Shown here piece after piece: positions 32,431 through 64,000 of a stretch of DNA of 64,000 nt (position 1 is its first letter; each line of letters starts with the position of its first letter). The stretch is taken from the NCBI RefSeq assembly GCF_002272245.1, contig NZ_NPDD01000021.1:1-64000 (forward strand), written 5' to 3'. Made by a program: the position numbers and the translations under genes. Source of the stretch: Bacillus sp. 7884-1. Lineage in GTDB: Bacteria; Bacillota; Bacilli; Bacillales; Cytobacillaceae. A model generated the notes under the pieces. That model did not search any database. It was given only the letters and a program-made list of their open reading frames with translations, and was not told where the DNA came from.

Positions 32431-34197
32431 CTAGGTTTCTATTAATTGTTTTTCCTCTAAATACTTGATTACTAGCGCAACGCATTCTTGAATTGAATAC
32501 TTGTTTGTATCGATAATCAATTCTGGATTAACCGGTTCTTCATAAACAGAATCCACACCTGAAAACTCTTTTATCTTTCCCTCTCTTAGCTTTTGGTAAA
32601 GGCCTTTGGGATCCCGTTTCTCGCAAACATCCAACGGACAATTAACAAAAACCTCGATAAATTCATTTTTTTCAACTAATTGACGTACTTGATCTCGATC
32701 TCTTTGAAATGGAGAAATAAAGGCTGCAAGGACCACCTGACCACTATCTACGAATAATTTTGAAACTTCACCGATACGCCGAATATTTTCCTGTCTGTCT
32801 TCTTTTGAAAAACCTAAATCTTTATTCAGACCGAACCGGATATTATCCCCATCTAATATATAATTTCTAATTTTACGATCAAATAATCTTTTAGCTATTT
32901 CATTGGCGAGCGTAGATTTCCCTGAGCCCGATAATCCCGTAAACCAAAGGATAAAGCTTTTATGACCATTTTGTTCTCTCCGGTCTTTTTTTGTAATACT
33001 GGGATCATGCCATGTGATGTTCGTTGCCTGTGATTTTTTTTCTTCCACATGCACAATCTCCGTTTGTTTTTGTATACCTTTTATTAATACATCAACGACC
33101 TCTTTACGACTAAAGGTGCTTGGAGGATAAATACCGTTACGTAATAAGTTCCTTACTTTAGTCCCAGAAAGAACTACATGATTGTCTTTACCATGTGGGC
33201 ATGTTTTGGTTGAAGCCATTGCCTTACACTTTAAGCAATAAAAACTATGTTCAAAGAAAAGAATGTTGATTCCAAGTTCCTCATTAGTGAAGTTTTTAAA
33301 GATTTCTTGTGCTTCATAGGTGCTGTAATAGTTACCTACCCCTGCATGATCACGTCCAACAATAAAATGTGTACATCCATAATTTTTACGAACGAGAGCA
33401 TGAAAAACTGCCTCACGCGGGCCGGCATAACGCATTGCTGCAGGGAAAACAGATAGTAAAACCCTGTCTTTTGGATAATAATGATTTAACAAGACTTGAT
33501 AACTTTCCATTCGAATTTTTGCTGGTATATCATCAAGCTTCGTCTCACCAACAAGTGGATGTAAAAAAAGGCCATCTACAATTTCAAGTGCTGATTTTTG
33601 GATATATTCATGGGCACGATGAATAGGATTCCTTGTTTGGAACCCAACCACCATATTCCATCCTAGCTCTCTAAATTTTCTTCTTGTCTCAGCTGGATTA
33701 ATATGGAAAGAAGAAAATTCCCCTTTTTCAATTTTGTGAACTAATTTGATTTCTCCACCAGCAAAAATATCAGGCCGTTCATATAGTTTTTTCACTCCTG
33801 GATGCATTAGGTCACTTGTTTTATAAACGTTCTTTGCCTCTTTCTGTTTATTGGGTGTGTATAATTGATCTAATTTTAAGACACCATACACAACCCCCTC
33901 TTTAACTAGCTTTATCCACTCACCAACAGTTAAATCTTCCGCTTGCTTCTCATTTACTGGGAGTGTTATCGGAATACTCCAAACAGTACCATCCATAAGA
34001 CGCATATTCTCAACTACGGATTCATAATCTTCTTTTGTTAAAAATCCTTTTAATGGACTGTAAGCCCCATTAGCTATAAGTTCGAGATCACTTAATGATA
34101 TGTTATCTAGTTCTATTTCATTTTTTAGAGATTGATATTCAAAATCTGGATCAAATAAATTTACCAATGATCCTCCATGAGGAATACTCTGACTCAT
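32431..34197 (-). CDS. Bifunctional sulfate adenylyltransferase/APS kinase (PAPS synthetase)
   Basis: Protein of 588 aa. The N-terminal ATP sulfurylase has [12 protein letters not shown] (about 188-199), [19 protein letters not shown] and VGRDHAG, and a zinc-type cluster [13 protein letters not shown] near 321-336. After a linker comes APS kinase with P-loop GLSGSGKST (about 422-430), DGDNIRFGL and ISPFQRDR. It turns sulfate and two ATP into PAPS, the donor for sulfotransferases. Bacillus usually carries sat and cysC as separate genes within the cys operon; here they are fused and stand alone among glycan and coat genes. Start ATG 34197 follows AAGGAAGG. Confidence 0.93.
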
Positions 34198-34200
34198 CAC

Positions 34201-34536
34201 GAATACCTTCCTTTACTTTTATAATATTGGTAGAAGTCACCTCTTAGCTCAGGAACGTTGTTAATTTTGGTAAGGGATACCAACTTGTACATATTTTAAG
34301 TTGACAATTTTTGAGGGATTTAAATAGGGAAACATCCAATTTCATCCAAGATAAATATGCAAAATTATGATTAAAAAATAGATATATTCTTTTACAAATA
34401 GATTCAAATTGTCACCAAGATAGTAGCAAATAAAGAAATATGTCAATAATGGATGGTTATTATCATTAAGTTCGGGCAATCACTACACTTCCTATCCCTT
34501 TTGCTTTTAATAAAAAGCATTTAGTGGAATTTTTAT
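34201..34536. other. Intergenic region upstream of the PAPS synthetase gene
   Basis: 336 bp, AT-rich. It holds a terminator-like inverted repeat TGCTTTT/AAAAGCA near 34498-34520, serving the epimerase gene. No open frame with an SD was seen, and I could not fix a promoter. Confidence 0.4.
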
Positions 34537-35460
34537 TTAAGATTTATCCCTCTGCCATACATAAGCATATGTTTCCTCTAAACCTTGTAGAATATCAAAA
34601 GTAGGATGCCATTCAAGTGACTGAAGAGCACTTTGATTATTAAGACAACTATGTTTAATATCACCCTTTTTACCATCGACAAAAACATATCCAATAGGGG
34701 AACCGTGTATTTTATTTAAAAAGCCAATCAATTGGTTAATGGAGGTTGTCTTTGAGGTGCTGATATTGAAAGTTTGGCGGTCACCACTTTTAATTGCAGC
34801 GATATTGGCTAAAACAATATCCTTTACATAAATAAAGTCCCTAGTTTGTTCGCCATCCCCATGTATTAACAACATCTCATTCCTCTTTATGCGATTAAGA
34901 AATACTGCTATAACCCCTCCTTCTCCCTTTGGTAATTGCCTTGGACCATATACGTTTCCGTATCGAAGAATGGTGAATGGAAGTTTATAAAGATGAGAAA
35001 ATATACGGATATAGGATTCGGCAGTTAATTTTGATAATCCGTAATACGAAATTGGTACAGTCAAATCGGTTTCCGATAATAAATCGGTCTCCAAATCTCC
35101 ATAAACTGCTGATGTCGAAGCAAAGATGATTCTCTTTACCCGCGCTTCATGACATGCTTCCAAAATATTAATTGTTCCATTAATATTGACACTTGCATCA
35201 TAATTTGGTTCGCTGATAGATTTTCCAACATCAGCCTGGGCAGCTAAATGGAATACTATATCCGGCTTTTCCTGGTTAATAATTTGTTTAGCCTTTGTAC
35301 CCCGAATATCCTCTACATGAATAATGGCAGAAGGATGAACATTTTCCAATCGTCCCGCTATAAGGTTATCGAGTACATGAACTTCAAATCCTCGTTTAAC
35401 AAGCTCTTCCACTAAATGGGAACCAATGAAACCAGCGCCTCCAGTAACGATCGCCTTCAT
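34537..35460 (-). CDS. NAD-dependent UDP-glucose 4-epimerase-like protein
   Basis: Protein of 307 aa, extended SDR. The NAD motif TGGAGFIGSHL at 7-17, FHLAAQADVG, the Ser/Tyr/Lys triad in ASTSAVYGD and YYGLSKL, and RYGNVYGPRQ follow the GalE order. Most likely it interconverts UDP-hexoses or UDP-HexNAc epimers for surface glycans. SD GAGGTGA lies upstream of ATG 35460. It precedes the PAPS synthetase on the same strand, separated by 336 bp. Confidence 0.88.
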   Translation of the reverse strand: MKAIVTGGAGFIGSHLVEELVKRGFEVHVLDNLIAGRLENVHPSAIIHVEDIRGTKAKQIINQEKPDIVFHLAAQADVGKSISEPNYDASVNINGTINILEACHEARVKRIIFASTSAVYGDLETDLLSETDLTVPISYYGLSKLTAESYIRIFSHLYKLPFTILRYGNVYGPRQLPKGEGGVIAVFLNRIKRNEMLLIHGDGEQTRDFIYVKDIVLANIAAIKSGDRQTFNISTSKTTSINQLIGFLNKIHGSPIGYVFVDGKKGDIKHSCLNNQSALQSLEWHPTFDILQGLEETYAYVWQRDKS

Positions 35461-35656
35461 AATATATAAGTCACCTCTTTTTTCTAACCATCTTATTCTC
35501 GAAAATTAGAAAAGGTATAAGACATGTACCCCTTTTTTTGTTTAGGGGTCTACTTTCAACATTTCCTGAAAATTTTTTTATTTGCCTTAGGACAGGTTCA
35601 CTACATTCAATAACTAGAATTTGAATACCCTTTAATAATCCATGAAAAATTCATTT

Positions 35657-35690
35657 TAAAGAAAGTGGTTTTCTCCCACTTTCTTTTTTT
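35657..35690. terminator. Terminator of the DUF1360 gene
   Basis: AAAGAAAGTGG-TTTTCTC-CCACTTTCTTTTTTT is symmetric and could act in both directions. Confidence 0.8.
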
Positions 35691-35738
35691 GGATACCCCT
35701 TTTTTAAAAATAAAGATGGAAAAGGAAAAACACACAAG

Positions 35739-36077
35739 TTAAATTTTCGATTCTATAATGGCAGCAGCCCCTGCTACGGCTAGAACAAGAAAAAATGGAT
35801 AAGTAATAGGAAAATAGAGATAGATAAACACTACAGTTATGGAGGACCAAAATCCTACACACCAAAAACAGCTTAGAAGAGAACCGATAAAATGCCTTAT
35901 CCCCGTACCCTTTATGTCAATCGTCTCTTCTAGTTGACCGAAATTATTTTCTACTATATTCACAGAAAAGAATGGGCGTCTAATAAAAGAAGTAATTTTA
36001 TCAAAGACAATTAAATGGGTTAAACGAAAGGAAGCAAAAATGATAATAAATAAATCCATCCAATCCAAACTGTACAT
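35739..36077 (-). CDS. DUF1360 membrane protein (YjcA-like, sporulation)
   Basis: Protein of 112 aa. FRLTHLIVFDKI near the N terminus and SCFWCVGFW in the middle are the DUF1360 signature; hydrophobic helices cover about 8-20, 62-85 and 90-108. In B. subtilis the DUF1360 protein YjcA is encoded beside cotVWXYZ and is a sigma-E-controlled sporulation protein, which fits this neighbourhood. SD GAGGTGATT precedes ATG 36077. Confidence 0.8.
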   Translation of the reverse strand: MYSLDWMDLFIIIFASFRLTHLIVFDKITSFIRRPFFSVNIVENNFGQLEETIDIKGTGIRHFIGSLLSCFWCVGFWSSITVVFIYLYFPITYPFFLVLAVAGAAAIIESKI

Positions 36078-36231
36078 ACAATCACCTCATTTCTCACATA
36101 AATTTGATTCATTGTATGTTTAGACCCTTCAAACGTTCCTTAGATACCCTTATCAATTTATTGAATGAATGCAACAGGTAACGAATATAGTGAAATGACA
36201 TAATATGTACTACAACTGGAGGGGATTTTTT

Positions 36232-36492
36232 ATGGAGAACGATAAAATGCCAAAAGAAAAGCCGATAGTTTGTTCGGTTGTAACGGAATTACAAGCAGCA
36301 CAAGTTGCTAAATTATGCGAGAGCTATGACATTCAAGCAATAATCCGAATGAAGCCTTTTGTTGATATTTCTCACCTGAAAAAAACTGTAAAGGCTAAGA
36401 TGAAAGAAAAATTATACGAACCATGTCCGTGCGGTAAAGGAAAGAAGTTTAAGTTTTGCTGTTACCAAACAGAAGTTGATATAAAGCTATAG
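36232..36492 (+). CDS. SEC-C motif small protein
   Basis: Protein of 86 aa. The C-terminal PCPCGKGKKFKFCC (about 64-77) is a SEC-C zinc-binding motif, as at the SecA C terminus. The N-terminal 55 residues (IVCSVVTELQAAQVAKLCE) look like a small helical domain of unknown role. Start ATG 36232 follows GGAGGGG; the frame extends nine codons upstream without an SD. Confidence 0.75.
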   Translation: MENDKMPKEKPIVCSVVTELQAAQVAKLCESYDIQAIIRMKPFVDISHLKKTVKAKMKEKLYEPCPCGKGKKFKFCCYQTEVDIKL

Positions 36493-36644
36493 AAGAAACA
36501 GTCTTCCTTTTGGAGGGCCTTTTTTTGTGAGAGGACAACCGTATTTCCCAGACTTAAACAATACTTATCCTTAAGGGAGTGGACTAGGAATACATATTTT
36601 GTAACTACTTATAAATTTAGGGTTATCAAGAGAGGAAAAATAAT

Positions 36645-36668
36645 TCAGACCGCAAGAAGCGGTCTTAT
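36645..36668 (-). terminator. Terminator-like hairpin after the Gly/Cys small gene
   Basis: AGACCGC-AAGAA-GCGGTCT is a perfect 7-bp stem, with a mixed A/T run on the minus strand (TGAATTATTTTT). Confidence 0.5.
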
Positions 36669-36694
36669 AAAGTAAAAATTTGACGGATTTTTAT

Positions 36695-36898
36695 TTATTT
36701 TAATTTATTTTTTACTCCCACCTGTTTGGGTTTTCCGCACCCGCATCCCCCAGAATCAGATTTCACCCTTTTATTGGAGACAACTCCCTGTGATAAATAA
36801 TTGTCAGCTATTTTACGTCCCATATACACTTTTGATTGCGGTGAAAATTTTGGAGTAAGAGATCGACTTACGTTTTGCCCACCCCGTCTGGTTTTCAA
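36695..36898 (-). CDS. Small basic protein with GGCGCG motif
   Basis: Protein of 67 aa starting MKTRRGGQNVSRSL and ending in a Cys/Gly motif (SGGCGCGKP) and Lys residues. TTG 36898 has AAGGAGGT 7 nt upstream, so expression is likely strong. I do not recognise the family. The composition suits a small coat or cross-linked spore protein, but this is inference from neighbours. Confidence 0.6.
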   Translation of the reverse strand: MKTRRGGQNVSRSLTPKFSPQSKVYMGRKIADNYLSQGVVSNKRVKSDSGGCGCGKPKQVGVKNKLK

Positions 36899-37012
36899 AT
36901 TAACTACCTCCTTGCTAAGTAGGGTTCCATAAATTATATGTATCTATGAATTACGATGTGTTCCCATTTAAAGGGGAGAGGATGGTTTAAAAAATAAGTT
37001 TAATAGAACAAC

Positions 37013-37042
37013 AAAAAACGGCGTTCTGCTGGGACGCCGTTT
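37013..37042 (-). terminator. Terminator of the JAMM protease gene
   Basis: AAACGGCGT and ACGCCGTTT arms followed by TTTTGTTG on the minus strand, 5 nt after the stop. Confidence 0.85.
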
Positions 37043-37046
37043 AAGT

Positions 37047-37583
37047 TCACTCATCAATTATATTTAATTTCACTGGGATGACTTTTTTGTTATTTAGTTT
37101 AAAACAACCCACGTCTACTTTTCCTTTATAAAACGAAACAATAAAGTAAGCGATCTGGTCGTAAGGATTATTTTCAATATCTTGTGATGAAGGAAAGGCA
37201 GGTGATGTGGGATGCGAATGGAAAATGCCTGTAAGTTTTTCATCCTTCTCATTCATTTCCATAACTGCACGTTTAATAGCCTCTTGGGACATATAAAACC
37301 GATTTAGACGAACTGATTCATTTTTTATTTTCCATAAAGTGTTGCCTGTTTCATTAATACCTGAAAGTAATCCACATGCTTCATACGGTAATGCCTGTTT
37401 GCAATAAGCAATCATTTCCTCATATACAGACTTCTTTATATAAAAAGCTTGATAATTCTCTTTTTTGTTCTTAATCCCTTTAGTTTCAACACTTCGATCA
37501 GGGAGACGAGGGCTGGGTTGTTTTACTTCGTAATGTGAAAAAATCCATCGGCGCGGGACTTGAGTTTGTACTTTTTTGTACAT
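37047..37583 (-). CDS. M67 family (JAMM/MPN) metallopeptidase
   Basis: Up to 178 aa. The JAMM zinc site is present: E in YEACGLLSG, then HSHPTSPAFPSSQD near residues 123-136 with both His, the Ser and the Asp. Prokaryotic JAMM enzymes cut isopeptide or sulfur-carrier tails. The frame begins inside the 3' end of the preceding coiled-coil gene (86-bp overlap), and the true start may be internal because no strong SD precedes 37583. The two genes are probably translated from one mRNA. Confidence 0.75.
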   Translation of the reverse strand: MYKKVQTQVPRRWIFSHYEVKQPSPRLPDRSVETKGIKNKKENYQAFYIKKSVYEEMIAYCKQALPYEACGLLSGINETGNTLWKIKNESVRLNRFYMSQEAIKRAVMEMNEKDEKLTGIFHSHPTSPAFPSSQDIENNPYDQIAYFIVSFYKGKVDVGCFKLNNKKVIPVKLNIIDE

Positions 37584-39819
37584 TCTGATATTGTACTTGC
37601 TGTTGAGATATATTTCGTTGAAACCAATCTCCTGATTGTTGGCCCTGAGGTAAGGATGGATTGTTTTCTACGGGTATTGGCTGCTCCAAATTCTTTATGG
37701 TTTCTTCCACAGCTGGCTGTACTGCCTTTTGGATTCCGGATGTCATAGGCGGTTGAGTGATAAACTGTCTAATAAAATTTTCCTTTTCTTTCAAGTTTGA
37801 TTCTATTACGGCAAACTTAGCTTTCATTTCTTTCATTTGGTTCTCTGCATACACTCTGTCCTTTTCGTATTGATCAATTTTTTCTTGATGCAATTTCAGC
37901 TTTGAATTAAATTGTATCATCTGATTTTGGAGGGCCAGTTCACTTTCCTTTTGGATTTTATAAATTTCTACTTTTTTGTCCTCTAGTTCTGCCGTTATTC
38001 TTTCATTTTTCTTCTCAAGCTCCTCCATTTTCACGAGGGTAGCCTTTGTTTCAGCTAATTCAGATTTTAATTCATCAATTTGTTTGGACCATGATCCTTT
38101 TTCTGAATCAAAAAACTCTGATTTTTCTTTATACACGTTCACTTGATCCTGGACGTGTTCTAGTACCTGCAGGTAGGAGTCTTTTTCACGCTGATAGTTA
38201 TGGGTTAGATTATTAAATTCTTCAATTTTTGTTTCCAATTCATCTTTCAACTTGAGTTTTTCCGTTTCAAAAAGTTCGAGGCGAATCAAGGAATCCTGAG
38301 CTTTCAGTAACTCAGTTTTCATTACTTCAATCTGATTTTCAAGCTCACTTTTTCGAGCCTCCGACTTTTCAAAGTCATCATTAAGCTGAATTAAATCTTG
38401 CATAAGTTTCTCATTCTCCTTTTTCATTTGATTAATCTTCCTATTTTTTGCCTCCAATTGGTCTTGCAGTGAAGATGCCGTCCTAATGATTGTCTTTGTT
38501 TGAGTAAAAACTTCATTTAGTTCGGACGTTATATTATCAAGCCTCTTTTCGTCCAACTCCCTTTGTATTGAGAATTGTAAAACACTGTCTCGAATTGAAG
38601 TGTTTTCCTCATCGAGAATGGCAATCCTTTTAAGAAGGCCTGCTCTTTCTTCCATAAATTGATGATTTTCTTTCTCTAGTCTTCTGACCTCTTTCAGCCT
38701 ATATTTTAGACGAGCAAATAATTTGCTTTTTAATGTTTTTAATTCCATTATTTGCGTTTTTGCATTCGACAATTCTGCTTCATGTTTACCAAACACTTCA
38801 AGATCGGAATGCTTCTCTGAGTCCAATTGGGTAATCTTCTGTAGATAGATTACGTTTTTCTGAGTTATTTGTTCCATATTTTCTTTTAAAACTTCCAATT
38901 GCTGAACAAAATCTTTATTCTGTGCTGTTACATCGTCTAAAACCCTTTGTTTCAAATGCAACTCATTTTGAAATTTACTTTTATCCTTTTTCAACTGGTT
39001 TAATACTTTTTGCACCTCAGATAATTCAACACTCATTTCTTTATTTTCTTGAATTAAAGTTTCTTCTCTTTTCTTCAACGACTCAACATTTTTTTTATAT
39101 TCCTCGGTCTCCTTTTGGAGCAGTGCAATCCCCTGTTGCAAACTCCCAATGTTTTCATCTTTTTCAGTTATTTTTTGACTCAATTCATTATGCCTATCTT
39201 GTAATGCTTGGTTATCTTTAAAGATTTCTTCTCTCTCTTTAATTGCTTTTTTCAATAAAGGTTCAAGTTTTTGGAATTTAGCCTCCCATTCATTTTCTTT
39301 TGAGGATTTCTGGTGAGATTCTTTATATTCTTTCCTCATGAGAGATATTTCTTTTTTTAAATCCTCCAATTGGACTTCCATAATTTGTTTTTCTTTAAAA
39401 AGTTTTTCTGAGTTTTCCTCATGCATTTGGGCTTCTTTTCTTAAGTTTTCTGTCAATTTGACAAGATTGGTATTTTCAGCCGCAAACTGATCAGTTTTTT
39501 TAAGCGATTCCGCTGCTTCATTGCTCTCTTTTAGTTGAGCTAATTTGGTTTTATAGGCCATATTTTTTTGGAGTACCTTATTGTATTCATGAATGAGTTT
39601 ATTTCTATCCTGATAATACGTCTTATGCTCATTGAAGATCTCTTGCATTTCCCTTCTCAAATTAACATTTTCTTGTTGCAGCCTAACCATTTGCTCACGG
39701 TAACTTCGATCATTTGTTTGACTATTGGAGTGGCAATGTACGAGTTCTGACTCCAGATGAATCACTTTCTGCTGCAGCTGCAAGTGGGTTAGTTTTTCAA
39801 AGCGCTGCCTTTTTGACAT
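37498..39819 (-). CDS. Long coiled-coil protein
   Basis: Protein of 773 aa. Residues about 10-690 are almost continuous Glu/Lys/Leu/Gln heptads, predicted to be coiled coil. The C-terminal 80 residues are Pro/Gln/Ser-rich (QPPMTSG, SLPQGQQSGDWFQRN) and end in TQPSSP. There is no signal peptide or membrane helix. ATG 39819 is preferred, with GGGGAGGG 7 nt upstream; an in-frame start 18 codons earlier has no SD. Likely a scaffold or fibre protein, possibly of the spore coat; the family was not recognised. Confidence 0.75.
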   Translation of the reverse strand: MSKRQRFEKLTHLQLQQKVIHLESELVHCHSNSQTNDRSYREQMVRLQQENVNLRREMQEIFNEHKTYYQDRNKLIHEYNKVLQKNMAYKTKLAQLKESNEAAESLKKTDQFAAENTNLVKLTENLRKEAQMHEENSEKLFKEKQIMEVQLEDLKKEISLMRKEYKESHQKSSKENEWEAKFQKLEPLLKKAIKEREEIFKDNQALQDRHNELSQKITEKDENIGSLQQGIALLQKETEEYKKNVESLKKREETLIQENKEMSVELSEVQKVLNQLKKDKSKFQNELHLKQRVLDDVTAQNKDFVQQLEVLKENMEQITQKNVIYLQKITQLDSEKHSDLEVFGKHEAELSNAKTQIMELKTLKSKLFARLKYRLKEVRRLEKENHQFMEERAGLLKRIAILDEENTSIRDSVLQFSIQRELDEKRLDNITSELNEVFTQTKTIIRTASSLQDQLEAKNRKINQMKKENEKLMQDLIQLNDDFEKSEARKSELENQIEVMKTELLKAQDSLIRLELFETEKLKLKDELETKIEEFNNLTHNYQREKDSYLQVLEHVQDQVNVYKEKSEFFDSEKGSWSKQIDELKSELAETKATLVKMEELEKKNERITAELEDKKVEIYKIQKESELALQNQMIQFNSKLKLHQEKIDQYEKDRVYAENQMKEMKAKFAVIESNLKEKENFIRQFITQPPMTSGIQKAVQPAVEETIKNLEQPIPVENNPSLPQGQQSGDWFQRNISQQQVQYQNVQKSTNSSPAPMDFFTLRSKTTQPSSP

Positions 39820-40217
39820 TCGTTTCCCTCCCCTAGGCAAAAGCCCATTTCTGCTCTTAACATGTTTATGCAAGTTTAAGACTAACGTTTACCAACCGAT
39901 GAATAAAATTATCTTTTAAAGGATTCCTCACCAATAATAATAGTACTAAATATAAGCGGACTAGCGACCTTAATTTGTAAAGACATCCAATCATACATAA
40001 GAGAAAAAATATTCAGGCTTGGTTACTGGAATTTTAGAGAACATTCACACACTTTAGGAATATATTGTAATGGGTGAACTATTGATTTTATTTTGTTCTT
40101 TCCTGATATTTTATAAAATATAAAACAAAATTCAAACACTTTTCAGGAAAGCAGCATAGTATACAATAGGCTCAACCAAAAAAAGAAAAGAAATATAAGA
40201 GAGAGGATGATTTTTTC
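39820..40217. other. Divergent intergenic region
   Basis: About 400 bp between the coiled-coil gene and the Cys-rich spore gene. It contains the sigma-K-like promoter described separately and an AT-rich palindrome (ATATTTTATAAAATAT) near 40107-40122. No gene with an SD was found. Confidence 0.5.
40136..40163 (+). promoter_or_regulatory. Sigma-K-like promoter of the Cys-rich gene
   Basis: AC, 17 nt, then CATAGTATA, an exact CATANNNTA. It lies 55 nt upstream of ATG 40218. Confidence 0.6.
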
Positions 40218-40970: not shown

Positions 40971-40996
40971 AAATAGGGAATATGACTAAGTTCTAC

Positions 40997-41022
40997 AGAG
41001 GAGTTCACCTCCTCTTTTTTTT
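40997..41022 (+). terminator. Terminator of the Cys-rich gene
   Basis: AGAGGAG-TTCAC-CTCCTCT followed by seven T. Confidence 0.85.
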
Positions 41023-41107
41023 GTTCTGTAAGCAGAAAAACAAAACTGTGACGATTCAATTTATTCTTTTTGAAAAGGCTTTACTAACATGGAAAAAGAA
41101 TTGTAGG

Positions 41108-41116
41108 CATAGAATA
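41108..41116 (+). promoter_or_regulatory. Sigma-K-like -10 box before the 41154 gene
   Basis: CATAGAATA matches CATANNNTA exactly, 38 nt upstream of the start. The -35 AC is at a non-ideal distance. Confidence 0.4.
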
Positions 41117-41153
41117 TTAGGAATATTCGGGCTAACCAGAGGAGGAGATTCGC

Positions 41154-41645: not shown

Positions 41646-41656
41646 GGGATGGAATA

Positions 41657-42628: not shown

Positions 42629-42629
42629 T

Positions 42630-42660
42630 AGAGCTGTTCAGACATGGATAGCTCTTTTTA
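42630..42660 (+). terminator. Terminator of the CgeB-like gene
   Basis: AGAGCT/AGCTCT arms followed by TTTTTAG. Confidence 0.65.
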
Positions 42661-42721
42661 GTCATAATAAATAAGTATAGTATGAAAAACCATTTTAAAG
42701 AGTTAGAAGGGGATGTTACAT

Positions 42722-53512: not shown

Positions 53513-53593
53513 GCTTTTCTTATCTTCCTTTCTATAAAAATTTATTATCAAAAAATACTGAACTATAAAAATTAATTGTTTGTTAATCAATTA

Positions 53594-56533: not shown

Positions 56534-56553
56534 CAAATCGAATAATACTTGCG

Positions 56554-56600
56554 GCCCCTGTCAGCAACAGCAGTCGATGACGGGGGCATTTTATTTTTTC
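56554..56600 (+). terminator. Terminator of the GT4-B/repeat-protein operon
   Basis: GCCCCTGTCA and TGACGGGGGC arms (one wobble) followed by ATTTTATTTTTT, 20 nt after the stop. Confidence 0.85.
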
Positions 56601-56784
56601 GAAAGATTTTTGCCCCTATTACACTCCCCCTTGCCCTGCTTTTTAACATTAAGCTATCAAAATGATGTTAAAAATCGTACAAGCTGGCCTATGTATTTCA
56701 ACTAAATAATAGAAAATTGGTAAATATATCAAATTCAATTGGTGAACATAGCAATAGGTTGCCATTGCAACATGAAGATAGCCG

Positions 56785-56793
56785 CATAATCTA
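56785..56793 (+). promoter_or_regulatory. Sigma-K-like -10 box of the nucleotide-sugar operon
   Basis: CATAATCTA matches CATANNNTA exactly, 70 nt before the 2-epimerase start. The rest of the 56534-56862 gap holds the terminator and no other gene. Confidence 0.4.
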
Positions 56794-56862
56794 TTAAGAA
56801 AAGAAAAGGCCAAGCATGAAATGAAAACCAAAAATCCTATTCCACTAAGGGGTGATAATACA

Positions 56863-57954
56863 GTGAAAGTAATGACCATTTTAGGGACTCGGCCTGAAAT
56901 TATTCGTCTAAGCCTCATTATAAAAAAATTAGATTATTTTGCTGAACAGCACACTTTAGTTCATACAGGACAAAATTTCACTTCGTCATTGAGTGATATA
57001 TTTTTTGAGCAGTTAGGGATTAGAAAACCTGATTTTGTATTGCAGGATCATCAGCAAACCTTTGGACAGCAGCTATCGGAAATGTTTAAAAATCTTGAGA
57101 CCATCCTACTGAAGGAAAAACCAGATAAAGTTTTAGTTTTAGGTGACACAAACAGCGGATTAAGTGCTATTTTAGCGGAAAGAATGGGAATCCCAGTTAT
57201 CCATATGGAAGCTGGCAACCGCTGTTTTGATCTTGAAGTACCAGAGGAAAAGAACCGTCGTGTGATCGACGCCATTTCAAGTTTCAATTTGCCCTATACT
57301 CCTCAAAGCAAAGAGAATTTAGTAAAGGAAGGGATTCCTTCAAATCGAATTATTCTGTCCGGCAATCCCATTTATGAGGTATTAGAGAATTACAAAAAAC
57401 AAATAGAACAAAGTGATATCCTTAGCAAGCTATCGTTAAAAAAGGAAAACTACTTTTTAGTCACGACTCACCGTGCTGAAAATGTCGACCATGAAGACCG
57501 ATTTCTAGAAATTATAAAGGGAATTAATTTGGTGGCTGAGAACTATCAAAAAAGGGTAATTTGCAGTATTCATCCTCGAACAAAATCGAGATTAGAAAGC
57601 AATTTATCTATAACGGTTCATCCATTAGTTGAATTTCATGAACCCTTTGGCTTTTTTGATTTTGTCAAACTAGAAAAAAACGCTTTTTGTGTGTTAACAG
57701 ATAGTGGAACAGTCCAGGAAGAATGCTGCTTATTTTTCGTACCTACAGTAACCATTCGTAAAACCACAGAAAGACCCGAAACAATTGAATGTGGAAGCAA
57801 CATGCTATCAGGGATAAATGCAAATAAGATACTTGATTGTGTTCATGTTATGGTAACTCAGCCAAAAACATGGTCCTACCCTGAAGGATACGACCATAAA
57901 AACGTTTCGGATAAAGTGATTAAAATTTTATTAGGAGGCATGGAAATTGTTTAA
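56863..57954 (+). CDS. UDP-N-acetylglucosamine 2-epimerase family protein
   Basis: Protein of 363 aa. MTILGTRPEIIRLSLII, HTGQN, VLGDTNSG, HMEAGNRCFDLEVPEEKNRR and TDSGTVQEEC are canonical for the WecB/MnaA/WbjD family. NRCFDLEVPEE rather than the LRT-type motif is usual for the subgroup acting on 6-deoxy sugars (CapG, WbjD, WbvD), as I recall. It inverts C2 of a UDP-HexNAc. GTG 56863 follows AAGGGGTGA. First gene of a six-gene operon. Confidence 0.88.
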   Translation: MKVMTILGTRPEIIRLSLIIKKLDYFAEQHTLVHTGQNFTSSLSDIFFEQLGIRKPDFVLQDHQQTFGQQLSEMFKNLETILLKEKPDKVLVLGDTNSGLSAILAERMGIPVIHMEAGNRCFDLEVPEEKNRRVIDAISSFNLPYTPQSKENLVKEGIPSNRIILSGNPIYEVLENYKKQIEQSDILSKLSLKKENYFLVTTHRAENVDHEDRFLEIIKGINLVAENYQKRVICSIHPRTKSRLESNLSITVHPLVEFHEPFGFFDFVKLEKNAFCVLTDSGTVQEECCLFFVPTVTIRKTTERPETIECGSNMLSGINANKILDCVHVMVTQPKTWSYPEGYDHKNVSDKVIKILLGGMEIV

Positions 57955-58933
57955 AGATAAAATTATTTTCGTTACAGGCGGGACAGGTTCGTGGGGACAT
58001 GAATTAGTTAAACAGCTTTTGACATACAATCCGAAGGAAATCCGTATTTTTTCAAGAAATGAGACCAGTCAATTTGCCATGAAACAAGAGTTCGACCATA
58101 ATCCAACATTGCATTTTATTATTGGAGATATAAAAGAGAAAGACACATTAATCGAAGCATGCCAAGGTGTCGATTATATTTTTCATTTAGCTGCTTTAAA
58201 GCATGTTCCGGTATGCGAGGATCAACCCATCGAAGCATTAAAATCAAACGTAATTGGAACGCAGAATGTAATAGATGCTGCTATTAGCTCCAATGTTAAA
58301 AAAGTGATTTATATTTCTACTGATAAAGCCTCAGACCCTTCCAACTTCTATGGGTTATCAAAAGCAATGGGCGAAAAACTAATTATTCATGCGAATACAT
58401 TAAATACCGATACGAGGTTTGTATGTATCAGAGGAGGAAATGTATTAGGGACAAATGGGAGTGTCATCCATGTGTTTAAAAGGCAAATTCAAGAAAAGCA
58501 AAAAGTTGGAATTACAGATATAAGAATGACACGTTTTTTCTTAACCGTACAGGATGCAATTAAACTATTATTTAAGGCAACTTTTGAAAGCATCGGGGGG
58601 GAAATCTATGTCATGAAGATGCCTGCCTGCAGGATTATTGACATTGCCCAGGTATTAATAGAGGCTTCTAATAAGGAAAATATTAAGGTTGAGACCCTCG
58701 GGATCCGACCAGGAGAGAAAATACATGAATTACTTCTTTCTGCATATGAAAGTACAATGACAGTTGCTTATGACGAAGAATATTTTGTTATTTTGCCAGC
58801 CATTAATATTAATGGTTTAAAAGAACATTATGCACAATATCCCCCTGTAAATTTAGAAAGTTATAATTCTAGTACAGGATTAATGAGCAAAGAGGAAATT
58901 AAAGAGATGTTAATAAAAGGCGGGTTTATCTAA
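57947..58933 (+). CDS. UDP-HexNAc 4,6-dehydratase/5-epimerase-like (CapE/WbjB/WbvB type)
   Basis: Protein of 328 aa, extended SDR. VTGGTGSWGHELVKQL at the N terminus, FHLAALKHVPVCEDQP, the catalytic ISTDKASDPSNFYGLSKAMGEK (with M/Y-x3-K) and IRGGNVLG are the CapE/FlaA1 hallmarks. It converts UDP-GlcNAc to a 4-keto-6-deoxy intermediate. TTG 57947 follows AGGAGGC and overlaps the previous gene by 8 bp, so translation is coupled. Confidence 0.9.
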   Translation: MFKDKIIFVTGGTGSWGHELVKQLLTYNPKEIRIFSRNETSQFAMKQEFDHNPTLHFIIGDIKEKDTLIEACQGVDYIFHLAALKHVPVCEDQPIEALKSNVIGTQNVIDAAISSNVKKVIYISTDKASDPSNFYGLSKAMGEKLIIHANTLNTDTRFVCIRGGNVLGTNGSVIHVFKRQIQEKQKVGITDIRMTRFFLTVQDAIKLLFKATFESIGGEIYVMKMPACRIIDIAQVLIEASNKENIKVETLGIRPGEKIHELLLSAYESTMTVAYDEEYFVILPAININGLKEHYAQYPPVNLESYNSSTGLMSKEEIKEMLIKGGFI

Positions 58934-59757
58934 TGAAACTATTGATTCTTGGTGGAAAAGGAATGGCAGGACATGTAATGACAGCCTATTTCACACAAAA
59001 AGCGTATGAAGTATTCTATACATCAAGAGTTAGAAAAGATCAAAACAGCCATTATCTCGACGTTACTGATTTTGCAAGACTAGAAGAAATTATTGAAACG
59101 ATAAAACCTGATATTATCATCAATTGTGTGGGCATTTTAAATGAACATGCTAGTAATGACCCCTTATTGGCTTTCCAAATAAACAGCTTATTACCCCACC
59201 AATTGATGAAACTGATTGAGCGCCATCAAGGAAAACTAATTCATATTAGTACAGACTGTGTTTTTTCTGGAAAAAAAGGTGATTATATTGAAGATGATAT
59301 CCCTGATGGTACTTCTGTTTATGCGCAATCAAAACGTTTAGGAGAAATTATTAGTGATAACCATTTAACCATTCGTACTTCTATCATAGGGCCGGAATTA
59401 AAAGAAGATGGGATTGGATTATTTTTGTGGTTTATGAAACAAGCCGGGGAAATTAAAGGATATACGAAAGCCTTATGGAATGGTGTAACAACACTTGAGC
59501 TAGCCAAAGCAACGGAAAAAATGATTATGCACAAGGTTACTGGCCTTTATCATCTAGGTTCAGAAACAAAAGTTTCAAAGTATGAACTATTAAAAATGAT
59601 ACAAAAGGTCTTTGAAAAGAATGATGTGAAAATCATTCCAGATCATGAAGTAGTGCTCGATCGAACGATTAAAAGCACAAGATCAGATTTTCAATACTTC
59701 GTTCCATCTTATGAAGAAATGTTAGTGGAATTAAGAGATTGGATGCAAAAGGAATGA
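58933..59757 (+). CDS. RmlD-like NDP-4-keto-sugar reductase
   Basis: Protein of 274 aa. LILGGKGMAGHVM, INCVGILNEHA, HISTDCVFSGKKGDY and YAQSKRLGE match RmlD/WbvR-type reductases; no cupin is attached as in CapF. It probably reduces C4 of the intermediate from the preceding dehydratase. Overlaps the previous stop by 1 base. Confidence 0.85.
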   Translation: MKLLILGGKGMAGHVMTAYFTQKAYEVFYTSRVRKDQNSHYLDVTDFARLEEIIETIKPDIIINCVGILNEHASNDPLLAFQINSLLPHQLMKLIERHQGKLIHISTDCVFSGKKGDYIEDDIPDGTSVYAQSKRLGEIISDNHLTIRTSIIGPELKEDGIGLFLWFMKQAGEIKGYTKALWNGVTTLELAKATEKMIMHKVTGLYHLGSETKVSKYELLKMIQKVFEKNDVKIIPDHEVVLDRTIKSTRSDFQYFVPSYEEMLVELRDWMQKE

Positions 59758-60656
59758 ATCCACAGCACAAATTGTTAATTACAGGGGCAAGTGGATTTAC
59801 AGGTCAGCATGCATGCAAACATTTCGTGAATGCGGGTTTTGATGTTACAGCTATAATAAATAACAACGCTTATGAAAATGACGACGTTCATATAGAACGT
59901 TGTGATCTAACAAATAAAGATGAAGTTAATAATTTAATAAAAAAAGTCAACCCCCACTACCTTCTTCATTTAGCAGGACAAAATCACGTTGGACAATCAT
60001 GGATAGATCCAATTTTTTCATTGGAAGCAAACTCCCTATCTACTGCCTATTTAATCGATGCACTTCGTCAAGAATATCCAGCTTGTAAAATCGTCGTTGC
60101 AGGTTCAGCCCTTCAATTTAACCCAGCAAATATGTCCACTCTTACTCACCCATATAGTTTAAGCAAGACACTGCAAGTATTAATCGCTCAATCATGGGGA
60201 GTTTTATACAATATGCATATTGTAATTGCTAAACCCTCCAATTTAATTGGACCAGGCTACTCAAACGGTGTATGTTCTATTTTTGCAAAAAAGGTAGCAG
60301 ACATGGAAAATAATAAAGCAGAAAAGGTCCTTGAAGTGAATAACCCAAATGTCCAACGGGATTTTATCGACGTCAGGGATGCTGTGAGTGCTTATGAAAC
60401 CCTCCTATTGAGGGGTGAGTCTGGAGAGATATATGATATAGCCTCAGGAAAGAACCACTCGCTGAAGGATATCCTTAACAGGTTGGAATCATTAACAACG
60501 GTGAAATTTGAGCTGAAATCTCAGTCAAATGAGATATTAGAAAGAAAGGCTGAAATAATTCCGATAAAACTAATGGAATTGGGCTGGAAACCATCATTTT
60601 CATTTGAATCGTCATTGCTTGATATTCTAAATTTTTACCGTGGAAATTTGAAATAA
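59754..60656 (+). CDS. NAD-dependent epimerase/dehydratase (RMD/GMD-like)
   Basis: Protein of 300 aa, extended SDR. ITGASGFTGQHACKHF, HLAGQNHVGQSW, GSALQF with PYSLSKTLQ for the catalytic set, and RDFIDVRDAVSAYE resemble GDP-6-deoxy-mannose reductase/GMD-like enzymes. It would be an additional 4-reductase or 3-/4-epimerase step. ATG 59754 overlaps the previous stop (ATGA); an in-frame TTG at 59739 is a possible alternative. Confidence 0.8.
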   Translation: MNPQHKLLITGASGFTGQHACKHFVNAGFDVTAIINNNAYENDDVHIERCDLTNKDEVNNLIKKVNPHYLLHLAGQNHVGQSWIDPIFSLEANSLSTAYLIDALRQEYPACKIVVAGSALQFNPANMSTLTHPYSLSKTLQVLIAQSWGVLYNMHIVIAKPSNLIGPGYSNGVCSIFAKKVADMENNKAEKVLEVNNPNVQRDFIDVRDAVSAYETLLLRGESGEIYDIASGKNHSLKDILNRLESLTTVKFELKSQSNEILERKAEIIPIKLMELGWKPSFSFESSLLDILNFYRGNLK

Positions 60657-60712
60657 CTAAGCAAGGAAAGTCACATAAAACGCATTAATTTCTATTAAAG
60701 AGGGAGAAATAC

Positions 60713-61819
60713 ATGAAAATTCTCATTACTTCGATTACCTATTCAGGAAAAATCGGTGTTTCAACCTATATTGAACAACTTGTACAAGGATTGGAATCTC
60801 AAGGACACCTTGTCGATGTTTTTTTCTATAATCCTTTCGTAAAGAACCAGAAAAAACGAATGACTACCCAAAACCAGGTTGCCGTTTATCGAGCAGCGGC
60901 TGCTCGGTTGTCTTTTGAAAGGTACGACCTCATTCATTCACAGGGGATCATACCCACAGTAGCTATTTCAGAAATAAGACCCAAAAATGTCCCTTTAGTC
61001 AGTTCATTACATGGCGCATTAGCTTTTAATATGTTAATCAATGGTGCAATAACAAAAAATACCGCTGTCTGGCGGCAAATGATGGATGTTGAGTCTAAAG
61101 CGGTCTCTTCAAGTGATATTTGCATTATTTCATCACACTGGTTAAAAAATGTTTTTCAAAGTCAATATAAAATCCAGCAGAATCAACCCTTTGCCATCGT
61201 TCCCTATGGGATCGATGCAGTAGAGTTTACCCGAAAGATGGAATTGCCTTCCCCAATTACAAAGCCAATAAATAAATTTATACTCGCCTGTACAGCCCGC
61301 TTAATTCCATTAAAAGGACAGCTATTTCTAATCGACGCGCTTGCCAAATTAAAACGCCAGCGGCAAGATTGGGTTTGCTGGCTTATTGGTGATGGACCTC
61401 TTCGTAATCAACTCACAAAAAAAGTAAATAGCCTGGGACTTAGAGAACAAGTGAAATTTCTTGGAAATCAAGAAAATGTCCCTTCCATATTAAAGGAGGC
61501 AGATTTATTTGTTTTCCCCAGTTTGCAGGATAACATGCCCTATGCCGTAATGGAAGCACAACTTGCAGGAGTCCCAGTTGCTGTTTCCGACGCCGGAGGG
61601 ATACCTGAAATGGTCCAAAATGGCATAACTGGACTGATCTCCCCCAAGAAAGACAGCCATGCTCTTTATATAAACATAAAGAACCTTATGGAAAATAAAC
61701 CACTGCGGGATAGCTTATCACAAAACGCGAAAATTTGGGCAATCGACAATTGGTCTATAGAGAAAATGATTCATCATACAATAACTGTTTATCATCAAGC
61801 ATTACAGATGAGAAATTAA
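60713..61819 (+). CDS. GT4-type glycosyltransferase (paralogue C)
   Basis: Protein of 368 aa. MKILITSITYSGKIGVSTYI, DLIHSQGIIPTV, SSLHGAL, KLKRQRQDWVCWLIGDG, SLQDNMPYAVMEAQLAGVPV and VSDAGGIPEMVQNG align with paralogues A and B, with a shorter N-terminal insert. SD GAGGGAGAAA precedes ATG. Probably uses the sugar produced by the four upstream enzymes. Confidence 0.9.
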   Translation: MKILITSITYSGKIGVSTYIEQLVQGLESQGHLVDVFFYNPFVKNQKKRMTTQNQVAVYRAAAARLSFERYDLIHSQGIIPTVAISEIRPKNVPLVSSLHGALAFNMLINGAITKNTAVWRQMMDVESKAVSSSDICIISSHWLKNVFQSQYKIQQNQPFAIVPYGIDAVEFTRKMELPSPITKPINKFILACTARLIPLKGQLFLIDALAKLKRQRQDWVCWLIGDGPLRNQLTKKVNSLGLREQVKFLGNQENVPSILKEADLFVFPSLQDNMPYAVMEAQLAGVPVAVSDAGGIPEMVQNGITGLISPKKDSHALYINIKNLMENKPLRDSLSQNAKIWAIDNWSIEKMIHHTITVYHQALQMRN

Positions 61820-61848
61820 TTAAATTGACAACAACGAGGTGGAATATT

Positions 61849-62817
61849 TTGGAAAAGTTTTATATTGTCGGTGGTGAACAAAAGGACAGGGTAGAAGATG
61901 AATGGCACCAGTATCAAAAAGGGATAATTATACAATTGGATATTGACAGCCAGCAATTCATAGACCGTCTAGAATATGTCTCTCCCCCAGAGGTTTGCCC
62001 TACTAATGACCCTTCTATCGTCTTTAAAGCAGGAACTGTAAAAAACAAACAGTTATACGTATGCACACAAACAGAAATACTTATTTTTTCTCTGCCAAAT
62101 CTAAAACAGAAGGAATATTTGTCATTACCATGCTTTAATGATATCCATCATATCCGGCCAAACCATAATGGAAATTACCTTGTCGTTAATACTGGTTTGG
62201 ATATGGTAATCGAGGTTAATAAAAAAGGAACTATTCTAAACGAGTGGAATGTTCTGGGACAAAATCCATGGGAACGCTTTTCCAGAACAGTCGATTATCG
62301 AAAGATTCTTACTACAAAACCCCATCAATCGCACCCTAATTATGTGTTCCAAATCGGTAAGGATATATGGGTGACCCGGTGCTTACAAAAAGACGCCATA
62401 TGTTTAACTAAACCAAATCAACAAATTAAAATCGGTGGAGCAATTATACATGATGGGGTTTTGGTTGGAGACACCCTTTATTTCACAAAAGTAAGTGGAC
62501 ATATAGTAACGGTTGATGTTAAAACCCTTAAAGTAAAAAATGAATATAATTTAAATAGTTTTACCAATGTTGGTAAGAATTTAGGATGGTGCAGAGGGAT
62601 TAAAGTGCTTGATAATCAAACCGTGATTGTAGGTTTTACAAGAGTAAGACCCTCCAGTAATCCATTGGATGGTAGCGATTTTTTTACACAGGAGCATGAT
62701 GTTTTACCAACAAGGATTGCTTGTTATCATTTATCCCTACAAAAATTGTTATGGGAAATTCCTCTCGAACAGTATGGCATGAATGCTGTCTTTTCCATAC
62801 ACAGCGAGGATGAATAA
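61849..62817 (+). CDS. Uncharacterised beta-propeller-like protein
   Basis: Protein of 322 aa. MEKFYIVGGEQKDRVEDEW is followed by repeated beta strands in propeller-like order (LYVCTQTEILIFSLPN, YLVVNTGLDMVIEVNKKG, DTLYFTKVSGHIVTVDV, LDNQTVIVGFTRVRPS). TTG 61849 has GAGGTGG 6 nt upstream; a longer frame from 61735 overlaps the previous gene and lacks an SD. Last gene of the nucleotide-sugar operon. Family not recognised; a glycan-handling or lyase-like propeller is one guess. Confidence 0.65.
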   Translation: MEKFYIVGGEQKDRVEDEWHQYQKGIIIQLDIDSQQFIDRLEYVSPPEVCPTNDPSIVFKAGTVKNKQLYVCTQTEILIFSLPNLKQKEYLSLPCFNDIHHIRPNHNGNYLVVNTGLDMVIEVNKKGTILNEWNVLGQNPWERFSRTVDYRKILTTKPHQSHPNYVFQIGKDIWVTRCLQKDAICLTKPNQQIKIGGAIIHDGVLVGDTLYFTKVSGHIVTVDVKTLKVKNEYNLNSFTNVGKNLGWCRGIKVLDNQTVIVGFTRVRPSSNPLDGSDFFTQEHDVLPTRIACYHLSLQKLLWEIPLEQYGMNAVFSIHSEDE

Positions 62818-62904
62818 AATGGATACTCAAAAAGATATCTACGCCATTTTGTGCGAATATAAGATTATATTCAAAATAAATTATCCAAGCCCATGTCGAA
62901 GTGA

Positions 62905-63099
62905 CGGTCCATTAACCGTTCAAAGAATACATGGGTCTTGGACCGCTTTTCTCACTGTAAGATATCCAAAGCCACCACACCGACACCAGTGGAAACGCCC
63001 GAGCAAAACCTCGGCAAATTTCATAAAGTTAAAGTGGGAGCCTTTATAGAGCGGGTGAAGGCGGAAGCATTAGCTGAAAAGCTAAGAAGCGATGGTTAA
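62905..63099 (+). pseudogene. Remnant of a SPOR-domain protein
   Basis: An open stretch without its own start (TGA at 62902) ends at TAA 63097. The last part reads EQNLGKFHKVKVGAFIERV and ALAEKLRSDG, a typical SPOR repeat as in CwlC-type amidases, preceded by a Thr/Pro linker (TTPTPVET). Frames upstream are broken. Likely a decayed cell-wall amidase gene. Confidence 0.5.
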
Positions 63100-63203
63100 A
63101 ATGTTTAAATTGTATAAGAATAATAGGGTTACGATTTTCACTCCTCAACAAGGACCCTGACAAATGTTGAACACGTCTAAGTCGAACTCCCTCTAGAGGA
63201 CGT

Positions 63204-63404
63204 CTATTTCGGGCCTTCATCTTCAGTAAAATTATGGCGGGCAATTTGATCCAGCCAATCATCGCAATCAAGACAGACCCAATGCAAGAAATGGCCTGTA
63301 ATACCTCCACGAAGCCAGCCGCCCTCAAATCCATAATTTTGTTTACATATAGAGCACCGATAACCCATCGCAGAAAAAGAGTCGGACATAACATAAACAA
63401 ACAA
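63204..63404 (-). CDS. Small double-CxxC zinc-ribbon protein
   Basis: Up to 66 aa. YRCSICKQNYG and WVCLDCDDWL give two CxxC knuckles for one zinc, and the tail is acidic (TEDEGPK). TTG 63404 has GGAGG 9 nt upstream; ATG 63389 (MSDSFSAMG) is the next start. Family not recognised. Confidence 0.55.
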   Translation of the reverse strand: MFVYVMSDSFSAMGYRCSICKQNYGFEGGWLRGGITGHFLHWVCLDCDDWLDQIARHNFTEDEGPK

Positions 63405-63555
63405 AGTAACCAACCTCCACTTAAACCTACATCGCAAAATCACCGTTATCTCTAATTGGGTTGCATAGTTGTGTATAATTTAGAACACTTCATATTACCA
63501 AGTCTTCTTGAACTTCAAGTTTTTATTGCATTTTACTGCGAGTGATTTGCCGATA

Positions 63556-64000
63556 TCAGTTGATTTCACTTCCCCTTCCCAACTTATTTAAAGATAAGAG
63601 CATCTCGTTATATCTTGAGAAAAAATTGCCCTCTGGAAAAATATAATTTAAAGAATCACCATATTCCTGAACAAAATTTAACAGTGAATAAATCTCAATC
63701 TCTGTTAGTCTTTTACTCCACAGTTCATTCCGATTCCTATCAATTTTCCTAATGATATTTGTGGGGAGATTGATTGGAATACCTAAAAAGGATTGACAAT
63801 CTGTTAATACTTTTTCTGGCTCTCTTATTAACTCTTCTTCTTTGATTAAGAAAATCCGATTTGATGAAATAGAATGGGAAAAATCTGAAATGGCTTTGTT
63901 AGTTTCGTACCAATATTCTGCTAAATAATTAATGTCTCCCCCTGGAAAACAGCGGTTTCGATCGAGTTGGGATGGAATACCATTAAAGAAACATTCCCAG
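63556..64000 (-). CDS. Sulfotransferase family protein (3), cut by the window end
   Basis: The C-terminal 147 codons of a minus-strand gene that continues past 64000. It reads WECFFNGIPSQLDRNRC, then YLAEYWYETNKAISDF, NRIFLIKEEELIREPEKVL and CQSFLGIPINLP. The layout, a Trp/Asn helix followed by a Glu-Glu-Leu loop with x4-PEKVL and FLGIP, is that of the C terminus of PAPS-dependent sulfotransferases. The PAPS-binding loop should lie beyond the window. The protein ends at TGA 63556-63558. Confidence 0.75.
   Translation of the reverse strand, partial: WECFFNGIPSQLDRNRCFPGGDINYLAEYWYETNKAISDFSHSISSNRIFLIKEEELIREPEKVLTDCQSFLGIPINLPTNIIRKIDRNRNELWSKRLTEIEIYSLLNFVQEYGDSLNYIFPEGNFFSRYNEMLLSLNKLGRGSEIN

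Follow-up and report, generated by a model that had tools for sequence, protein, structure and literature searches.

Rhizobia pair NodPQ, which supply 3'-phosphoadenosine-5'-phosphosulfate (PAPS), with the sulfotransferases NodH and NoeE; this system and the Rax system of Xanthomonas are both Gram-negative, with a peptide or lipo-oligosaccharide signal as their product. In Xanthomonas, according to PMC4216712, the ATP sulfurylase and adenosine-5'-phosphosulfate (APS) kinase genes RaxP/RaxQ serve the sulfotransferase RaxST. The spore glycans of the sps/crust system of Bacillus subtilis are made in the mother cell under sigma-K, and the sugars named for them are rhamnose, galactose, quinovose, glucosamine, muramic lactam and legionaminic acid; a word count of the paper concerned (PMC7439481) gives no word beginning with "sulfate". 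Here we describe a 64,000-base stretch of Bacillus sp. 7884-1, which probably belongs to the genus Neobacillus (the window; bases 1-64000 of the 82,529-base contig C21 of a 6.0-Mb genome) which contains bases 28543..64000 of a 42.6-kb accessory block (28543 to 71162 of C21; the island). The island encodes a fused ATP sulfurylase-APS kinase (Sat-CysC), three putative sulfotransferases (ST_A, ST_B and ST_C), CsxC-family proteins, glycosyltransferases, RfbABCD and a TauE family transporter, and we propose that it is probably a self-contained module for the sulfation, in the mother cell, of a spore-surface glycan, with a PAPS supply of its own.

The island is like RaxP/RaxQ-RaxST and NodPQ-NodH/NoeE in tying PAPS-supply genes to sulfotransferase genes, and like the B. 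subtilis sps/crust system in its rhamnose glycan genes and proposed mother-cell synthesis. It differs from the former in that its Sat-CysC is a single ORF of Bacillaceae type and is accompanied by three sulfotransferases, coat genes and a transporter that putatively carries sulfate, and from the latter by the proposed sulfate. With PAPS genes that are extra to assimilation and linked to sulfotransferase genes, it is predicted to be a dedicated sulfation module of the NodPQ/NodH kind; what would be new is the joining of such known gene sets with the known mother-cell-made spore glycans. A preliminary description of this DNA, made from the sequence, held that sulfated spore-surface polysaccharide was, to its author's knowledge, undescribed in Bacillaceae, and no report of one is found among the literature matches listed, whose coverage mostly excludes subscription papers.

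If the proposal is right, spores would carry a strong negative charge from their sulfate esters across a broad span of pH, and this would affect how they adhere, hydrate, bind metals and interact with hosts and soil. PAPS would thereby have a new use in Firmicutes, and a Sat without CysH beside a sulfotransferase would be a simple genomic marker for sulfated surfaces. An island-plus and island-minus pair within one species, together with a CysH-less genome, makes the proposal directly testable.

Sat-CysC and the supply of PAPS

Sat-CysC is, as first described, a single complete frame (589 aa), with full ATP-sulfurylase (327 bits), PUA_2 (170 bits) and APS_kinase (233 bits) domains. The characteristic Sat and APS-kinase sequence motifs, whose roles we presume, are present by eye, and with both domains complete the protein is a predicted PAPS synthetase. 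It is like the bifunctional Sat/APS kinases (2gks, fungal ATP sulfurylase and human PAPSS; we take 2gks to be from Aquifex, and some of these organism names are likewise presumed) in carrying both domains in one chain, with Sat first as in 2gks. It differs from them in scoring below the cut-off of the bifunctional model PRK05537 (548 bits, cut-off 669) and in that its best relatives are separate sat and cysC ORFs: among related named loci (the best 80 of 584 candidates) the two are separate in 80/80, which suggests that they were fused locally. The single-frame form occurs in four of 61 genomes of the genus (this genome, G007, G073 and G083), and other sulfation loci have cysC and sat as separate genes. 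An internal stop in the fusions of G073 and G083 was considered and rejected; the TAA sits at the frame end, not in the linker, and these genomes have single ORFs of 586 and 589 aa. A scan of the window gave no Rfam family at or above its gathering score, and hence no known riboswitch ahead of Sat-CysC.

The genes of sulfate assimilation lie elsewhere. There is no cysH near Sat-CysC, in keeping with the stated absence of a cys operon around it, and the genome's CysH matches are on contigs C236 and C223 only. The proposed search for a separate operon thus found one on each: cysH-sat-cysC on C236, and cysH, a permease-like ORF, sat and cysC on C223. Because of these, Sat-CysC is not the only PAPS source. 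The C223 set corresponds to the sole Sat and CysH of the same-species genome G074; the C236 set could be accessory or a contaminant, and might not belong to the genome because the assembly is rated 4.63% contaminated.

Linkage was scored for the 97 Sat copies of the 61 genomes, taking CysH within 10 kb and a Pfam-detected sulfotransferase (two families) within 35 kb. CysH was near 84/97 copies, and a detected sulfotransferase was near 0/84 of these; of the 13/97 copies without nearby CysH, 7/13 were near a sulfotransferase and 6/13 near neither, and no copy was near both (Fisher p 1.3e-7, relatedness not corrected for). One of the six, on G083 C134, has an ST_A that the Pfam screen missed and that context reveals, which gives 8/13. 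Two more of the six are the extra Sats that G016 and G062 have inside glycan clusters. The other three are also in G083: on C482 a PHP-like gene adjoins a cysC-sat pair, a feature of the second cluster type described below; the Sat of C480 is at a contig end, and its cysC has surroundings that by eye seem assimilatory; and C234 has a Sat fragment. G005 (one contig, C1, 5,588,297 bases) is the only one of the 61 genomes without a CysH match; its sole sat-cysC pair has two sulfotransferase matches within 5 kb (one short, with an open frame of 177 aa, perhaps a remnant), TauE beside it and YheC/D-type genes near. The operons elsewhere, the genus-wide split and the CysH-less G005 support the suggestion, already made in the preliminary description, that this predicted PAPS synthetase serves sulfation rather than assimilation.

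Among the named loci (again the best 80 of 584), CysH lies within 10 kb in 68/80; in the other 12, cysC-sat adjoins sulfotransferases in Lederbergia citrea and Neobacillus mesonae, in sets similar to that of G005, and does not in the remaining 10. A tree of 53 Sats was built by a quick method from the genome's two assimilatory copies, 40 named loci that we selected from the 80, and 11 others; in it the window Sat stands apart from the assimilatory copies of the genome that carries it. Twelve rows were labelled sulfation-associated, including G016 despite its having no sulfotransferase, and the tree requires 4 changes between this label and the rest (shuffled mean 10.9), at least 2 of them forced by starred branches.

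Three putative sulfotransferases

The three proteins belong to different Pfam families, and by eye all show a 5'-phosphosulfate-binding (5'-PSB) loop and the 3'-phosphate-binding (3'-PB) Arg...Ser eight residues apart, the motifs by which PAPS is bound. ST_B (37.3 bits to Sulfotransfer_2, cut-off 22; motifs TPRSGCTT and RNPYRRAVS by eye) and ST_C (83.4 bits to Sulfotransfer_3, cut-off 27, and 40.8 bits to Sulfotransfer_1, also over its cut-off) are predicted P-loop sulfotransferases by curated family score. ST_C, first reported as partial, runs past the window edge and is complete in the contig (63556-64491 (-), 311 aa). In ST_A the motifs LHRSGSS and HRPFEASVRS are invariant across five aligned orthologues, and its orthologue in G243, a genome of another family, reaches 26.9 bits over Sulfotransfer_3 model positions 4 to 211, just under the cut-off. 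Sat-CysC and the three sulfotransferases are under purifying selection, with dN/dS of 0.08-0.29 in 10/10 comparisons (Sat-CysC 0.10-0.19 in three, ST_A 0.08-0.27 in four, ST_B 0.29 in one, ST_C 0.13-0.19 in two). The solved structures matched by ST_B, designed repeat proteins and S100 proteins, we judged to be noise.

Sulfotransfer_3 and Sulfotransfer_2 were searched in the 61 genomes, and Sulfotransfer_1 in this genome only; the first two find matches in 8/61, or 9/61 counting the one found by context. An ST_A profile matches in 14/397 genomes drawn from the order, this one included, and the surroundings were read for six of the 14. One locus (G093:C1:2957324-2960509, L179-L180) has two ST_A homologues of about 50% identity among many small ORFs and is phage-like by eye.

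Proposed mechanism and spore context

We suggest that the TauE family transporter would bring sulfate, its presumed cargo, into the mother cell, where Sat-CysC would convert sulfate and ATP to PAPS without drawing on the assimilatory pool. Six or seven glycosyltransferases would assemble at least one glycan from rhamnose (RfbABCD) and sugars derived from UDP-GlcNAc, and each of the three sulfotransferases could then sulfate a different position or sugar. Once sulfated, the chains might be attached to proteins of the coat or outer layers, for example those with genes alongside; acceptor and place of the product, and the timing, above all that of Sat-CysC, are our suppositions. No flippase, polymerase or exporter would be needed, because the mother cell would make the glycan in its own cytoplasm around the forespore and later lyse.

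The spore context that had been claimed for the module is supported by coat-family genes, conserved sigma-K-like sites and the lack of a recognisable export system. The BMQ_0737 and CsxC families are over their cut-offs inside the island, which places spore coat genes in the locus; several spore-type proteins had been noted at first, and of those scored here the two at 40218 and 28785 pass and that at 29757 falls under its cut-off. A sigma-K-like site lies ahead of BMQ_0737, the first gene of a presumed unit ending with ST_A; its CATA core, with AC 15 or 17 bases upstream, is found in 5/5 aligned genomes, and the full CATAnnnTA in 4/5, the last base differing in G073. The site ahead of TauE is identical in 4/4 genomes, and that of the GT2-ST_B unit (p 0.02) is also in G007 and not in G073. 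With p taken from 100 resamplings per upstream region, sites at p<=0.05 precede 5/34 island genes and 0/23 flanking controls, a modest enrichment.

Several observations weigh against the proposed module. The preliminary description counted ST_A and ST_B as complete sulfotransferases with both PAPS-binding motifs; the motifs are in both by eye and ST_B is over its cut-off, but ST_A is subthreshold in Pfam (Sulfotransfer_3 23.5 bits, curated cut-off 27). The five-row ST_A orthologue profile finds no solved relative at E<=1 and matches ST_C-type profiles at 21% probability, and a single-sequence AlphaFold model of ST_A is uninformative (pLDDT 33). There is no recognisable sigma-K-like site ahead of Sat-CysC or ST_C, nor at the cysC of the second cluster type in 4/4 genomes, and sigma-E-like sites are little enriched (3/34 island against 1/23 flanking upstreams). 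The TauE family is annotated as sulfite exporter, and sulfate as cargo here is a guess. G016 and G062 have an extra Sat inside glycan clusters with no sulfotransferase detected; G004 keeps ST_A and its neighbours but has only the assimilatory sat-cysC and no island Sat-CysC. In G067 the ST_B copy contains a stop codon and a second polytopic protein is present (397 aa, 8 segments), and this cluster may be a capsule locus.

Spore layer, capsule or protein sulfation

The most serious alternative, in our view an unlikely one, is that the product of the island is no spore layer but a sulfated capsule or exopolysaccharide made by vegetative cells. Sulfotransferase-like proteins do occur in capsule-type clusters: those of G303 and G325 share with the island ST_A- and ST_C-like proteins, RfbABCD and sugar-nucleotide genes, and G325 also has a CysNC-like fusion. 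The G067 cluster, the lack of a recognisable sporulation promoter at Sat-CysC, and the additional cysC-sat of G062, in whose region flippase-like ORFs are seen by eye, point the same way. However, G303 and G325 each have two large proteins of Wzx/Wzy size (10-13 hydrophobic segments; G325 has a transporter besides), and the island has none; of its 39 ORFs of at least 100 aa, TauE and DUF1360 alone show at least three hydrophobic segments, the sole large polytopic protein being TauE, and no flippase, polymerase or exporter Pfam match was found among the island ORFs scanned. Among stretches of other genomes that we chose for the same count, those of G005, G020, G065, G243 and G427 are similar, with the transporter as their only polytopic protein, plus DUF1360 in G243 and G427. 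The island is thus not recognisable as a Wzx/Wzy or ABC-type capsule locus, and the coat-family genes inside it and adjoining the G243 module, with the conserved sigma-K-like sites ahead of the ST_A unit and TauE, argue for a spore layer.

Less likely again is that the module sulfates tyrosine or other residues of coat or appendage proteins, not sugars. The closest solved relatives of ST_C are protein-tyrosine sulfotransferases (E 3e-8), and structural-looking proteins are encoded in the island; for ST_C itself, its resemblance to these enzymes makes protein a possible acceptor. Set against protein sulfation are a weak similarity of ST_C to NoeE, a Nod-factor sulfotransferase (30 bits, far under cut-off), the neighbours, mostly sugar enzymes, and two G427 proteins that reach the Galactose-3-O-sulfotransferase model (32 and 35 bits, cut-off 27), which are relatives of the enzyme at the ST_B position in G073 and not of the window ST_B; a third relative, in L079, scores 24.5 bits, below that cut-off. 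Because of the neighbours, and indirectly of the G427 matches, we favour a glycan as the predicted acceptor.

That Sat-CysC is a third assimilatory copy, here by chance, is scarcely credible: beyond its own small clade the nearest Sats do belong to cysH operons, but it has no cysH nearby, complete operons elsewhere in its genome, and the genus-wide split and CysH-less G005 against it.

Related clusters in other genomes

Three arrangements were seen. The first, that of the window, has Sat-CysC, three sulfotransferases and TauE. In the second, cysC-sat lies beside TauE, sulfotransferases and YheC/D-type ATP-grasp genes, which we take to be coat-associated; it is found in G005 (by Pfam), and in G065 and L. 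citrea (by BLAST to G005, the L. citrea TauE and sulfotransferases by Pfam). G020 has cysC-sat, TauE, GT8 and sulfotransferase genes, and no YheC/D homologue was found by BLAST in the 60 kb taken. The third arrangement has a CitMHS/Na-sulfate-type transporter with sat and cysC, in G067 and G243. In G243 (90% complete), BMQ_0737, CgeB, transporter, cysC and sat lie within about 6.5 kb, with ST_A 12 kb on. In G427 the transporter and sat are joined by ST_A and by another four sulfotransferase-like ORFs, of which three were Pfam-tested, with no cysC in 40 kb. The two TauE groups do not find each other by BLAST at 1e-8, which suggests that they were separately recruited.

Taking these clusters together, we lean towards a wider view: that some Bacillaceae clothe the endospore in a coat of sulfated glycan, made by mother-cell modules with their own sulfate transporter, PAPS synthesis and sulfotransferases; that assimilatory sat-cysC gave rise to such modules on more than one occasion; and that one lineage lost the CysH route, apparently keeping PAPS for the spore coat alone.

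Extent and gene content of the island

G074, assembled in one contig, aligns to C21 up to 28543 and resumes at 71162, at 92-97% identity; where C21 has the island, G074 has about 3.1 kb. We considered whether C21 is a contaminant, which is unlikely because its flanks match this same-species genome at that identity. The whole island with all three sulfotransferases is present in G007; G083 has its left part, including ST_A, on a 21.6-kb contig; and G073 has the island, but another Sulfotransfer_2 enzyme occupies the ST_B position (L145, G073:C31:21072-21842), as if sulfation specificity had been swapped between strains.

Table 1. Features of the island (window positions unless marked as contig positions)
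Feature	Position	Strand	Basis or remark
Accessory block, part inside window	28543..64000		missing from G074
CsxC-family protein	28785..29537	-	NF045794 176 bits, cut-off 135
BC_2427/CsxC-like protein, SPOCS-like match	29757..31295	-	NF045793 158 bits (below cut-off 200); SipL 23.9 bits (cut-off 23.6)
N-acetylmuramoyl-L-alanine amidase with SPOR domain	31538..32296	+	Amidase_3, SPOR
Fused ATP sulfurylase-APS kinase (predicted PAPS synthetase)	32434..34200	-	Pfam, NCBIfam
UDP-sugar epimerase/dehydratase	34540..35460	-	Epimerase 209 bits
DUF1360 small membrane protein	35742..36077	-	Pfam; 3 hydrophobic segments
JAB-type protease and 791-aa coiled-coil protein, overlapping frames	37050..39873	-	
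Sigma-K-like site, -10	40155..40163	+	AC at 40138-40139, 15 bases, CATAGTATA
BMQ_0737 family morphogenetic spore coat protein	40218..40967	+	NF052457 233 bits, cut-off 71
Conserved protein, presumed coat-CgeB-ST_A unit	41154..41642	+	no Pfam/NCBIfam family; conserved CATAGAATA upstream
CgeB-like glycosyltransferase	41657..42625	+	Glyco_trans_1_2 111 bits, DUF3880 41 bits
Putative sulfotransferase A (ST_A)	42713..43381	+	Sulfotransfer_3 subthreshold; motifs
Probable glycosyltransferase, GT8-like by eye	43414..44793	-	no Pfam match; weak relatives (phmmer, BLAST)
S-adenosylmethionine (SAM) methyltransferase	44813..45496	-	Methyltransf_12 49 bits
GT4 glycosyltransferase	45898..47121	+	Pfam
DUF1796 protein	47396..48019	+	Pfam
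GT4-type glycosyltransferase	48254..49327	+	Pfam
DUF1796 protein	49757..50404	-	Pfam
Small protein, sigma-K-like site upstream (p 0.01)	50585..51022	-	no family
YadA-head repeat protein with Peptidase_G2 autoproteolytic domain	51238..52662	+	
Predicted sulfotransferase B (ST_B)	52745..53590	-	Sulfotransfer_2 37.3 bits
GT2 glycosyltransferase, first gene of presumed GT2-ST_B unit	53597..54307	-	Pfam
GT4 glycosyltransferase	54615..55859	+	Pfam
Q/R-rich repeat protein	55859..56530	+	sequence
UDP-GlcNAc 2-epimerase (WecB)	56821..57951	+	TIGR00236 293 bits, cut-off 210
UDP-GlcNAc 4,6-dehydratase family (PseB/FnlA-like)	57947..58930	+	Polysacc_synt_2 327 bits; TIGR models below cut-off
RmlD-like reductase	58933..59754	+	Pfam
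NDP-sugar epimerase/dehydratase	59739..60653	+	Pfam
GT4 glycosyltransferase	60713..61816	+	Pfam
Conserved protein kept with glycan genes	61735..62814	+	orthologues in G007, G016
Predicted sulfotransferase C (ST_C), 3' part	63556..64000	-	whole gene = contig 63556-64491
RfbABCD (rhamnose)	contig 66254-69621		past window edge
TauE family transporter	contig 69825-70679		past window edge

The count of at least six glycosyltransferases given in the preliminary description holds by Pfam (those beginning at 41657, 45898, 48254, 53597, 54615 and 60713), with that at 43414 a seventh by eye. Of the two SAM methyltransferase domains it counted, one, at 44813, is recovered by Pfam, and the second would be part of the 43414 gene, which resembles a methyltransferase there by eye and has no Pfam match. 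The CgeB name is one that we presume for the gene at 41657..42625, and the CsxC family presumably has a spore-surface role. The conserved protein at 41154..41642 has orthologues in G007, G073, G083 and G004, and so does the JAB-type protease/coiled-coil pair. The YadA-head/Peptidase_G2 protein may be a surface fibre.

The gap in G074 (L161, G074:C1:3405876-3408982) encodes an FAD-binding protein and a YyaC-type spore protease, and an ABC-transporter stretch outside the island (window 23754-27630) is likewise missing from that genome. The glycan cluster of G016 (G016:C1:401947-429237, L126-L127), with its extra Sat and a truncated TauE and no cysC or sulfotransferase nearby, is bounded by a PNP gene and by a 290-bp stretch that copies the 3' part of that gene at 91%; it encloses MrpR/recombinase-like and DndB-like genes and looks like a mobile island. 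In the capsule-type cluster of G325 (G325:C9:3292-28405, L186-L187), rfbABCD and sulfotransferase-like genes are accompanied by a CitMHS-type transporter and the CysNC-like fusion, which follows a 302-aa ORF that only its position marks as CysD; the arrangement, found here in Bacillales, is like that of NodPQ.

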